From the NCBI GenBank assembly GCA_017617295.1, contig JAFZWN010000123.1, positions 1 to 33,367 on the forward strand: DNA of 33,367 bases, read 5' to 3'. Below the pieces are notes generated by a model, which searched no databases, was not told the origin of the DNA, and saw only the letters and a list, made by a program, of their open reading frames with translations. Positions within the stretch are counted from its first letter, which is position 1, and each line of letters starts with the position of its first letter. Source of the DNA: Clostridiales bacterium (lineage in GTDB: Bacteria; Bacillota; Clostridia; Saccharofermentanales; Saccharofermentanaceae). Shown here piece after piece: positions 5,224 to 27,880 of the stretch. A program made the position numbers and the translations under genes.

Positions 5224-5324
5224 TTCAACCTTTTTCAAGATTTCAAAACCATACTTCAACCTTTTTTCTTAGTTCAGACCCCCTATTTCAACCTTTTTTC
5301 GATTTTTGGGGAAAAAGGTTGAAA
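5224..5324. repeat. TTCAACC motif array with 31/32-nt steps and a 13-bp inverted repeat
   Basis: TTCAACCTTTTT starts at 5224, 5255 and 5287, steps of 31 and 32 nt (63 in total). The third copy is paired with its exact inverse: TTTCAACCTTTTT (5286-5298) and AAAAAGGTTGAAA (5312-5324), a 37-nt unit like those in the array at 173. It lies just beyond the 3' end of the lipoprotein gene ending at 5365. No U-tract follows the hairpin on the minus strand, so it does not look like an ordinary terminator. Confidence 0.7.
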
Positions 5325-17245: not shown

Positions 17246-17361
17246 TTGTCCCTACCTTGGTACATAAAAACTACAGTTTTTGCAGTAAACCAGGGACAAA
17301 GGCGGGTTTGTCCCTACCCATGTACACAAATCTTCGGTTTCAACTACAAAATCAGGGACAA
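17246..17361. repeat. two-unit inverted-repeat array, 62-nt period (TTGTCCC/GGGACAA)
   Basis: Two 54-nt units at 17246-17299 and 17308-17361, exactly 62 nt apart. Each opens TTGTCCCTACC, has GTAC at the same internal position (17260 and 17322), an inner hairpin (AAAAAC-TACA-GTTTTT in the first; AAATC/GGTTT around TTC in the second) and closes CAGGGACAA. The inner sequences differ but both keep a hairpin, which suggests selection on structure. The array lies between convergent genes. Confidence 0.8.
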
Positions 17362-23432: not shown

Positions 23433-24089
23433 ATGGAAACATCAAAAAAAATATATAAATTTTCTCTGTATTTCCAGCTCGCACTCGGGCTCTTTTTTCT
23501 GGCCGCATTCCTTCTTGTCTTCGCGTCCACTTTCGGAGCCCTCGCCCTATTATTCCTTCTTTGGGGAGGCATCCGGTATCTCTTTGCCAAAAAGGGAAAG
23601 TATCCCAAGCTTCTTACCGAGCAGACGATACTAAGTACTATCATCACCATATTACTGTCACTTTATATCGGGTTATCATCGGCTTTTATCATCTCGCCCT
23701 TAAAATATCAGTATCCGCTTCAGATCAGATATGAGAGTCACTTTAACCATCCCGGAGAACAGTTCCCTGCTAAGCTTCCAAAAGGAGCATCTGATTACAG
23801 ATTCGAAGCCGTCCCAACGATCTTACAGGGACAGGGCTATGTGGTAGTATCGTTCCACGCGCCTTCGGACTTCATCTCGTCTGAGAGGGCAAGGTTCTGT
23901 TCTTCCGCGATCCGTACATTCAAACTCGGAGAACGGTATAATAACGAAGTCGATCTTCCCTACAGCGAAGTCTTTGAAGAACATCCGGATGCCGACGTTT
24001 ATGTCGTACAGGCTGCGATCGATCAGAATCATCCTCATTCCGAGGCAGTCATAATCGACGGCGACTTCATAGCTTACTCATCACTCTGA
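23433..24089 (+). CDS. membrane protein of unknown function
   Basis: A 218-residue protein with three predicted membrane helices in the first 90 residues, followed by an extracytoplasmic region of about 130 residues. I do not recognise the family. The ribosome binding site is weak. It follows the transglutaminase-like gene by 49 nt on the same strand and may be co-transcribed. The array at 24133 begins 43 nt after its stop. Confidence 0.7.
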   Translation: METSKKIYKFSLYFQLALGLFFLAAFLLVFASTFGALALLFLLWGGIRYLFAKKGKYPKLLTEQTILSTIITILLSLYIGLSSAFIISPLKYQYPLQIRYESHFNHPGEQFPAKLPKGASDYRFEAVPTILQGQGYVVVSFHAPSDFISSERARFCSSAIRTFKLGERYNNEVDLPYSEVFEEHPDADVYVVQAAIDQNHPHSEAVIIDGDFIAYSSL

Positions 24090-24132: not shown

Positions 24133-24440
24133 GATGTACCACATTTCCCTTCTCAATTGAGTTTATATGGTACAGGTATATGGTACATCAAGGCAGATGT
24201 ACCACATTTCCCCTCTCAATTGAGTTTATATGGTACGGGTATATGGTACATCCGGGCATGACGGGCGATGAACGGCGAAGAGTATCGATCCATGGACAGC
24301 AATAATTTTGGCAAAAAGCAGATGTACCACTAAAGGCGCTAAAATACCGATTTACTGGTACCAACCTCTGGTACATTCAGGCAGATGTACCACTAAATCC
24401 ACAAAAATACCGATTTACTGGTACCACTTAGTGGTACATC
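24133..24440. repeat. four-unit inverted-repeat array, 63-nt period (GATGTACCA/TGGTACATC)
   Basis: 57-nt units start at 24133, 24196, 24321 and 24384, that is steps of 63, 125 and 63 nt; 125 is about twice the step, as if one unit were missing. Each unit has GTAC at +3, +37 and +50, so the internal spacing 34 and 13 nt is fixed in all four. Units 1 and 2 are near-identical and contain the palindrome CTCAATTGAG; units 3 and 4 share ATACCGATTTACTGGTACC. Units are joined by an AGGCA-type linker. It lies between convergent genes. Confidence 0.85.
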
Positions 24441-24590: not shown

Positions 24591-25946
24591 TCAGCGCTCA
24601 TCCATTGATGTATAAGGACGTCTCTTGTTAACGTTCTTATATGCGGGGCGCATGATCCTGCCGCCCGAGACGAGCTCCTCGATCCTGTGTGCGCTCCAGC
24701 CCGAGATCCTTGCCGTGGCAAAGATAGGCGTAAAGAGCTCCGGCGGGATACCGAGCATCGAATAGACAAAGCCGGCGTAGAAGTCAACGTTGGCGCAGAC
24801 TATCTTGTCATTCTTCTTGATCTCGTGGAAGACATCGGGAGCCAGACGCTCTACATTCTCATAGAGAGCAAGGATATCCTCCATACCCTTCTCTTTCGCG
24901 AGTTCACGCGAGAGTTTCTTGAGGAGTACGGTCCTGGGATCGGAAAGCGTATAAACGGCATGTCCGATACCATAGATCAGTCCGGATCCGTCGAAAGCTT
25001 CCTTTCGGATGATCCTGGCCAGATAATCCCTTATCTGTGATTCGTCGTTCCAGTCCTTAACCTCGGAGCGGAGTTCCATCATCATGGAGAATGCCTTATT
25101 GGATGCACCGCCGTGCTGAGGGCCCTTGAGCGCTCCTACAGCGGCCGCCATTACCGAATATGTATCGGAACCTGCGGATGAGATGGCGTGTGTTACAAAG
25201 CTCGAGTTGTTACCGCCGCCGTGCTCCGCATGAAGAACGAGGGCCAGATCGAGGACTCTCGCCTCGAGCTCGGTGAACTTTCCGTCGGGTCTTATAAGAT
25301 GAAGGATATTCTCCGATGTCGAGTACTGAGGCACGGGATCGTGCAGGAAAAGGCTCTGGTGCTCGACATAGTGTCTCCTGGCCATATAGCCGTAGGAGAT
25401 CAGTACAGGGAATCTGGCGATCAGCTCCACGCACTGGCGGACAACGTTATTAAGCTCGATGGAATCGGGGTTATGGTCATAGGAATACAGGGCCAGAACG
25501 GATCTGGCGAGCTTGTTCATGACATCGGGACTCGGAGCCTTTAAGATCATGTCCTCAGTGAAGCCTCTGGGAAGCATCCTGCAGGACGAGATGAGCTCGT
25601 TATATTCCTTGAGCTGCTCTTCCGTTGGAAGTTCACCCATAAGAAGGAGATAGGATATCTCTTCATAACCGAACCTCTTACCGTAGAATCCGTTTACGAG
25701 GTCAGAGACCTCATAGCCTCTGTAGAAGAGCTTGCCTTCGACAGGCACTCTCTCCGCATCATCCACGATATAGCTCATGACCTCACCGACTTCGGTAAGG
25801 CCTACGAGAACACCGGTACCGTCGTTATTACGGAGTCCGCGCTTTACGTTATATCTCGAATAAAGATCGGGATCGATCTTTGCTTTTGCTTCAGCAAGCC
25901 CTGTGAGCTTGCTGATCATTTCACTTTTTGTTTCTTCGTTAAACAT
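24591..25946 (-). CDS. gltA: citrate synthase
   Basis: A 451-residue enzyme that condenses acetyl-CoA with oxaloacetate. The frame stays open to 26000, but the start is the ATG at 25946: it overlaps the aconitase stop as TGATG, and GAGGGAG precedes it. Family signatures include HAEHGGGNNSSFVTHAISS, GPQHGGA, GIGHAVYTLSDPR with the catalytic His, and VDFYAGFVYSMLGIP containing the catalytic Asp. This HGGGN-bearing, relatively long form is common in clostridia. Sitting directly after aconitase, it is probably tuned to make 2-oxoglutarate precursors for glutamate. No isocitrate dehydrogenase gene is in the window. Confidence 0.95.
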   Translation of the reverse strand: MFNEETKSEMISKLTGLAEAKAKIDPDLYSRYNVKRGLRNNDGTGVLVGLTEVGEVMSYIVDDAERVPVEGKLFYRGYEVSDLVNGFYGKRFGYEEISYLLLMGELPTEEQLKEYNELISSCRMLPRGFTEDMILKAPSPDVMNKLARSVLALYSYDHNPDSIELNNVVRQCVELIARFPVLISYGYMARRHYVEHQSLFLHDPVPQYSTSENILHLIRPDGKFTELEARVLDLALVLHAEHGGGNNSSFVTHAISSAGSDTYSVMAAAVGALKGPQHGGASNKAFSMMMELRSEVKDWNDESQIRDYLARIIRKEAFDGSGLIYGIGHAVYTLSDPRTVLLKKLSRELAKEKGMEDILALYENVERLAPDVFHEIKKNDKIVCANVDFYAGFVYSMLGIPPELFTPIFATARISGWSAHRIEELVSGGRIMRPAYKNVNKRRPYTSMDER

Positions 25947-27880
25947 CAGGAACGCTCCCTCGTATAGTTCAACAATCCGCCTGCCAGGAGCATTCCGCAC
26001 TGACGCTCGGAGATGGCAAGGACTGTCTCAAAATCATAGCCCTGAGTCTTGTTAGTTACAATTACAGGCTTGCCGGATACGGCTGCCTCGACCTGAGCTC
26101 TGGCATCCCTGATGATAAGCTCATCGAGCATACCGAGCTTATCGTAATCAGCCGCATCCTTGAATGTCAGGGGAAGGATACCGTTGTTGATGAGGTTAGC
26201 CATGTGGATCCTGGCGAAAGAAACCGCGATAACGCCCTTGATACCGAGCTGAAGAGGTGCAAGAGCAGCGTGCTCACGGGAAGAACCCTGACCGTAGTTG
26301 GCACCGCCGACGATGAATCCGCCGCCGTTCTCCTTTGCTCTCTCAGGGAACTTCTCGTCACAGGGTGTAAGGCAGAAGTTAGCCAGATGAGGAACGTTGG
26401 ATCTGAAAGGCAGGAGCTTGCTGTTCGAAGGCATGATGTGGTCTGTCGTGATATTGTCCTCGAGCTTGATCAGTACCTTGCCGTCAACCTCATCCTTAAG
26501 AGCGGTGTTAACGGGGAAAGGCTTGATGTTCGGACCACGTACTACCTCTACCTCGGAAGGATCCTCGGAAGGCATGATGACCATATTATCGTTGACCTTG
26601 AAGGAATCAGGCATTGTTACTACCGGCGGCTCGCCGAAGTCAGCGGGATCCGTGATGACGCCTGTAATAGCAGCAACTGCAGCAACCTCGGGGCTTACGA
26701 GATAGATGGAAGCGGAAGCGGTTCCGGATCTCGCATAGAAGTTTCTATTATTTGTACGGAGGGAAACAGCATCCGTCTTGGGACTCTGGCCCATACCGAT
26801 ACAGGGTCCGCATGCACACTCGAGGATACGGGCGCCTGCTGCGATCATATCTGCAAGAGCGCCACACTCGGCGAGCATATTAAATACCTGCTTGGATCCG
26901 GGTGCGATCGCAAGTGATACATCGGGATTTACCGTGTGACCCTTGAGGATAGCTGCTACCTTGAGCATATCGAAAAGAGAAGAATTCGTGCAAGAACCGA
27001 TGCAGACCTGATCAACCTTGATACCTGCGATCTCCTTGACCGTTACTACCTGGTCAGGCATGTGAGGCTTGGCGATAAGAGGCTTCAGTGTGGAGAGGTC
27101 GATCTCTATCTCCTCATCGTAAACAGCATCCTCGTCAGCCTTGATCTCAGTCCATACGTCTTCCCTGTCCTGAGCCTTGAGGAAAGCCTTCGTCACATCA
27201 TCAGAGGGGAAGATGGAAGTCGTGGCACCGAGCTCGGCACCCATGTTGGTGATCGTTGCTCTCTCGGGAACCGTAAGGAATTCGAGACCGTCACCTGCAT
27301 ACTCGATGATCTTGCCAACACCGCCCTTAACGGTCATGATGCGGAGCACCTCAAGGATGATATCCTTGGCAGATGTCCAGGGAGCGAGCTTATTCTTCAG
27401 AGTGATCCTGACCATCTTGGGCATAGTGATATAGTAAGGTCCGCCGCCCATGGCAACTGCTACATCAAGTCCGCCGGCACCGATAGCGAGCATTCCGATA
27501 CCGCCGCATGTGGGTGTGTGGGAATCTGAACCGAGAAGTGTCTGTCCGGGAACGCCGAATCTCTCGATATGTACCTGATGGCAGACACCGTTACCGGGAC
27601 GGCTGAATCTGATACCGTGCTTACTTGTAACTGTCTGGATGTATTTGTGGTCATCGGCATTTTCAAAGCCGGTCTGAAGCGTATTGTGATCGATATAAGC
27701 TACGGAAAGCTTTGTCTTTACTCTGGGAACCCCGATAGCCTCAAACTGAAGATAAGCCATAGTACCCGTGGAATCCTGGGTTAGTGTCTGGTCGATCCTG
27801 ATCGAGACTTCTTCTCCTGCCTTCATTTCACCTGACAGAAGGTGATCCTTGATGATTTTCTGTGATATCGTATATCCCAT
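25946..27880 (-). CDS. acnA: aconitate hydratase
   Basis: A 644-residue aconitase that isomerises citrate to isocitrate. The [4Fe-4S] ligands are Cys in the segments CIGSCTNSSLFDML and CACGPCIGMG. The C-terminal swivel domain has the GGANYGQGSSREHAALAP motif. The length fits the single-chain clostridial type, shorter than the 890-residue E. coli AcnA. The start is ambiguous: the frame opens at 27904, GGAGG lies 3 nt before an ATG at 27889 and 12 nt before the ATG at 27880; I chose 27880 because relatives begin MGYTISQKI. It is translationally coupled to citrate synthase by a TGATG overlap. Confidence 0.93.
   Translation of the reverse strand: MGYTISQKIIKDHLLSGEMKAGEEVSIRIDQTLTQDSTGTMAYLQFEAIGVPRVKTKLSVAYIDHNTLQTGFENADDHKYIQTVTSKHGIRFSRPGNGVCHQVHIERFGVPGQTLLGSDSHTPTCGGIGMLAIGAGGLDVAVAMGGGPYYITMPKMVRITLKNKLAPWTSAKDIILEVLRIMTVKGGVGKIIEYAGDGLEFLTVPERATITNMGAELGATTSIFPSDDVTKAFLKAQDREDVWTEIKADEDAVYDEEIEIDLSTLKPLIAKPHMPDQVVTVKEIAGIKVDQVCIGSCTNSSLFDMLKVAAILKGHTVNPDVSLAIAPGSKQVFNMLAECGALADMIAAGARILECACGPCIGMGQSPKTDAVSLRTNNRNFYARSGTASASIYLVSPEVAAVAAITGVITDPADFGEPPVVTMPDSFKVNDNMVIMPSEDPSEVEVVRGPNIKPFPVNTALKDEVDGKVLIKLEDNITTDHIMPSNSKLLPFRSNVPHLANFCLTPCDEKFPERAKENGGGFIVGGANYGQGSSREHAALAPLQLGIKGVIAVSFARIHMANLINNGILPLTFKDAADYDKLGMLDELIIRDARAQVEAAVSGKPVIVTNKTQGYDFETVLAISERQCGMLLAGGLLNYTRERS

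Follow-up and report, generated by a model that had tools for sequence, protein, structure and literature searches.

A paired three-box intergenic repeat dispersed in the genome of a Clostridiales bacterium as a candidate non-autonomous mobile element

The array of 63-nt repeats at positions 24133 to 24440 of the window, that is, the whole 33,367-nt stretch of Clostridiales DNA that was analysed, belongs to a set of repeats found at 13 loci of the same genome, and the three short boxes in each of its units are nearly invariant. We consider it somewhat probable (about 0.55) that this array represents a single copy of a non-autonomous repeat of the REP/BOX/MITE-like kind, dispersed between genes, and that its boxes are bound by a sequence-specific protein, probably of the recombinase or transposase type. 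Here, the evidence for this reading is summarized, known systems and other explanations are compared with it, and related repeats with different boxes are described.

The four units of the window array start at 24133, 24196, 24321 and 24384, and each carries GTAC at +3, +37 and +50, as a sequence-only reading of this DNA had claimed. Its further observations, a distance of 125 nt between the starts of units 2 and 3 (24196 to 24321) and a middle stretch free of the motif, were also confirmed, there being no GTAC in that stretch. The GTAC sites are parts of longer boxes, TGTACCA, GGTAC and TGGTACA, of which the first has the opposite orientation to the other two. Two 63-nt arrays were detected at this locus by TRF. 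With up to one mismatch allowed, the window contains 8 occurrences of the core GATGTACCAC, where 1.43 would be expected, and none of 100 shuffles reached this number. Two A-type units on the + strand (24133 to 24189, 57 nt, TGTACCA..GGTAC..TGGTACA; 24196 to 24252) precede two B-type units on the same strand (24321 to 24377 and 24384 to 24440), the last of which terminates in the conserved trailing spacer TCCGGGCA, extending to about 24446. The identity is 92% between units 1 and 2 and 83% between units 3 and 4, which supports the earlier proposal of local duplication and divergence. To the left of the array a + strand gene ends at 24089, and to its right lies a - strand citrate synthase gene (24591 to 26000); both genes are therefore convergent on the array.

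A sequence model built from 34 units was used for a search of the whole genome, a draft that is 92% complete and consists of 156 contigs. In this search, 13 loci were found to hold 37 units that score 44 bits or more, and the next score was 17 bits. All of these loci are intergenic, and their neighbouring genes are convergent, co-directional or divergent. Applied to 114 further genomes of the family and 187 others of the order, the model gave no strong unit, and among the sampled relatives the element is confined to one genome. The units can be categorized into three types. In the A type, box 1 is followed by ATTTT, and TATA precedes boxes 2 and 3; in the B type, the corresponding sequences are TAAAA and CAC or CTC; the third type, C, is smaller. 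The layout AA-linker-BB occurs on the window contig (C47) and on C5, C63, C76 and C7, the last of which has three A units. The other layouts are pairs of one type (AA, BB, CC), single C units and mixtures that include decayed remnants; decayed B remnants lie at C138 and C84. Between the copies on C47 and C7 the identity amounts to 86% across 319 bp, linker included, and the homology ends at the ends of the array.

These copies also bear on the stretch between the A and B pairs of the window (24254 to 24320), in which the sequence-only reading had seen a unit that decayed while the frame of spacing was kept. This idea did not hold. Comparison of the 67-nt middle with the units gave 24 matches, the mean of the shuffles being 23.1 and 176 of 500 shuffles scoring at least as high. 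The stretch is a linker that is shared with C7, where it lies inside the 86% identical match, and partly with C63, where a shortened form is present; on this homology and the shuffle-level resemblance to the units, a decayed middle unit was ruled out. The distances between A and B starts in the five AA-linker-BB copies, calculated from their coordinates, are 125, 122, 91, 133 and 91 nt, and given this variation it is a coincidence that the distance in the window falls close to a multiple of 63.

Between units of the same type the mismatch is 0.3% inside the boxes and 26% outside, a contrast that is inflated because the units compared were first picked by a pattern favouring intact boxes. In the independent model search, only 3 of the 37 strong units fell outside the pattern set, each with AGTACCA instead of TGTACCA as box 1. 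The fixed box spacing noted earlier is supported as well: in tandem pairs, the distance from box 2 to box 3 is always 13 and that from box 3 to the next box 1 always 16, and the distance from box 1 to box 2 is 34 or 35. The columns before boxes 2 and 3 mostly equal each other within a type (A/A, C/C, G/G), as would be expected if one protein reads both. The possibility of protein binding, raised by the sequence-only reading, is likewise supported.

The fixed spacing, the boxes kept invariant in both orientations, the pairing of units and the copying of whole arrays together suggest a sequence-specific protein that acts on paired sites. A full copy is AA-linker-BB, with AA-only, BB-only, CC and single-unit copies also occurring; in the mechanism proposed here, the three near-invariant boxes of 6-8 bp in each unit, at fixed spacing, would be putative sites for one sequence-specific protein, and this protein would work on paired units. 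It may be a recombinase or transposase by which copies of the element were spread through the genome, in the way of REP/BOX/MITE-type repeats, and paralogous proteins with changed specificity may lie behind other box families. Profile searches of the 92% complete draft gave no match to PF01797 (Y1 transposase, RAYT), for which the E. coli control was positive, and none to PF00665 (rve); PF01695 had a single match, over the cut-off, in a 453-aa candidate frame. In a draft of this completeness and of 156 contigs, a multi-copy partner gene could be missing. A search with the TGTACCA direct repeat matched only these elements and one coding-looking repeat on C42, and the draft may lack the parent transposon. 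When seven near relatives were compared for empty sites, they had the two flanking genes next to each other at none of the 13 loci.

Several known systems resemble this element in part. The BOX elements of Streptococcus pneumoniae are modular intergenic repeats with distinct modules and variable internal copy number. The window element is likewise modular, dispersed, variable in internal copies and devoid of a gene of its own, but each of its modules has the same three-box plan. Bacterial MITEs are also small, non-coding and dispersed, with inverted terminal boxes, and at 13 of 13 loci the outermost boxes are TGTACCA..TGGTACA; however, the window element has internal tandem units, no parent transposon was found for it in the draft, and no target-site duplication was detected, the sharing between flanks being 44 against 44.2 in permuted flanks (p = 0.60), on which ground a classical MITE with target duplication was rejected. 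The sequence-only reading had allowed that the region might be a degraded known MITE; it is indeed a dispersed repeat, but no known MITE was matched and the boxes are not degraded. REP, BIME and REPIN elements are short, intergenic, palindrome-bearing, multi-copy and species-specific, are often found in pairs or arrays and downstream of genes, and exist as several families per genome. The window element is similar, with all 13 loci between genes and inverted boxes in every unit, whereas a REP-type repeat is a single palindrome of 20-40 bp and the units here are 57-64 nt long with three boxes. RAYT-REPs are defined by a GTAG/CGTC tag at the foot of the palindrome (PMC3733652). The unit alignment contains no such tag, its invariant ends being TGTACCA/TGGTACA, and with neither the tag nor, in the 92% complete draft, a Y1 transposase (PF01797), the assignment to RAYT-REPs was rejected. 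The element works like REP/BOX/MITE-type intergenic repeats but lacks features that define RAYT-REPs (tag, transposase) and classical MITEs (target duplication).

Near-invariant boxes in a rigid spacing at 13 loci would also be expected of host operators or chromosome-architecture sites, at which a species-specific regulator or nucleoid protein would bind paired three-box units and selection in place would keep the boxes. The boxes are more intact than those of old inert insertions would be, which could mean such selection, and the earlier idea of a spacing in helical turns fits cooperative binding. We nevertheless regard host sites as unlikely: the copies have no consistent place relative to genes, with every orientation of neighbours and often a long way to the nearest start, none of the other genomes sampled from the order contains them, and AA-linker-BB was copied as a block that includes the linker. 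An RNA element, in which the paired units would form hairpins on transcription and so affect mRNA stability or termination, is a distinctly improbable explanation. The pairs in the window do fold better than shuffles on both strands (z from -3.7 to -7.1), but this is a trivial consequence of the inverted boxes; the positions flanking the inter-unit hairpin, read from the unit alignment, lack covariation, box 2 is invariant though the hairpin needs none of it, and the whole window has no Rfam match at gathering thresholds. A weak hint for an RNA element is that, by reading, it is antisense to transcripts in 6 of 6 co-directional loci (two-sided p of about 0.03), so that the same strand would always be transcribed, but among 15 pairs no more than 10 fold more strongly on the reverse strand.

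IS21/Tn7-type ends also carry several short transposase sites each, with the left end different from the right, and the two direct repeats in IS21 ends are required by the transposase (PMC10122671). The array could accordingly be read as what an internal deletion has left of an IS21- or Tn7-like transposon, the A pair being its left end and the B pair its right end, each with several transposase sites. This would account for the difference between AA and BB, for the short linker that they flank and for the outermost TGTACCA..TGGTACA as termini. Against this stand the missing target duplication and the frequency of AA-only, BB-only and single-unit copies, that is, of free single ends and single units; with no rve-domain (PF00665) gene in the 92% complete draft of the same genome, this reading was rejected and retains very little probability.

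The dispersed repeat, as preferred here, was also sought outside the order. The exact three-box pattern gave 30 scattered single matches in 84,980 genomes (species), against a rough chance estimate of about 20, and 24 matches in viral contigs, where two control motifs gave 8 and 0; among the exact-pattern matches and viral contigs the best score with the element model was 18.9 bits. No match to the element was found in the phages, plasmids and viral contigs searched, and among the papers listed by a literature search for the box string none was relevant. Several of the exact-pattern matches belong to TGTACCA arrays that have no relation to the element and adjoin a P4-type integrase gene or replication genes. 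In Yersinia, Rahnella and others, four-box TGTACCA arrays (L057, L060, L064, L067, L083) lie next to yicC, a P4-type integrase gene or both, and these are possibly integrase arm sites. TGTACCA-rich arrays are also present on phage- or satellite-like contigs (L068 4221-4520, L085 7849-8140, L086 1473-1763 and L090 1226-1560), the one on L068 beside a primase/helicase-like gene.

Arrays with other boxes were collected by a de novo scan for a 7-mer and its reverse complement occurring at least four times in 140 nt. Such arrays, intergenic and with inverted boxes, numbered 24 in 580 kb of the same genome, 12 in 200 kb of the sister species G005, 2 in 200 kb of G017 and none in 230 kb of G001, G012 and G006; another family gave 2 in 400 kb of three genomes, and simulated sequence none in 740 kb. 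Part of these arrays are ordinary sites, for example the parS-like TGTTCCACGTGGAACA. The arrays of G005 (L184, L187, L188), at about 6 per 100 kb, have quite different boxes, TTACGTACTAAAA, TTGACTGAAA and TGTATCGAAAA. A partial census of other box families, covering 810 kb of the same genome, revealed a T family (TGTCCCT..AGGGACA, with an internal GTAC) at 8 loci: one pair in the window (17247 to 17360) and further loci at L153 7580, L154 17986, L156 8005, L196 7180, L271 2114, L274 15169 and L284 4754. Its units are exactly 52 nt long and always paired, 62 nt apart with a spacer of 10 nt, and the order is either direct or inverted. In the N family (TAACCCA-N5-GAACCCA..TGGGTTA), the units are 50 nt long, apart from two variants of 44 and 51 nt. 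Both the T and the N (AACCCA) families repeat the three-box plan of the window element. With the most divergent N unit left out, the interiors of N units align to those of A units with a score of 7.74, against a mean of 4.70 (sd 0.30) for permuted columns, none of 300 permutations reaching it; with the B/C interiors no clear alignment was obtained (5.01 against 4.55; 38 of 300 permutations). All three boxes thus differ on an apparently common backbone, and between N and A units the boxes appear, from these alignments, to have been exchanged on it.

Other arrays were noted during this survey. Four two-box units, TGTACCA-N20/21-TGGTACA, one with a box variant and with a period of about 52, lie at 174 to 364 of the window; they are hairpin-like, share the box of the window array and are situated downstream of a - strand gene (426 to 2729). 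TTCAACC arrays have 3-4 boxes in one direction and one inverted at the opposite end, as in the window (5224 to 5323, three direct boxes and one inverted) and at L199 1829-1959. Long arrays of ATATACGG/CCGTATAT, with 8-11 boxes at a regular period, occur at L151 7102-7500 and L163 19675-19935. A TCCCTTA array at L153 96-177 lies immediately upstream of the start of a Fic-like gene and looks like an operator.

The larger set of look-alike repeats may represent mobile DNA of a poorly known kind. More tentatively, and with a likelihood that we rate as low, many repeat families of the genus might share one mechanism, in which the recognition boxes carried by a backbone of paired three-box units (TGTACCA, TGTCCCT, TAACCCA/TGAACCCA and probably further ones) are swapped together. 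A putative, diversifying family of DNA-binding recombinases or regulators would drive this exchange, and the repeats would then constitute a new class of sequence-specific intergenic element. A change of boxes with backbone, spacing and pairing kept would show shifts of specificity in selfish or regulatory elements inside one genome, and the 13 natural copies together with the sister families provide a handle for finding the protein that reads the boxes.
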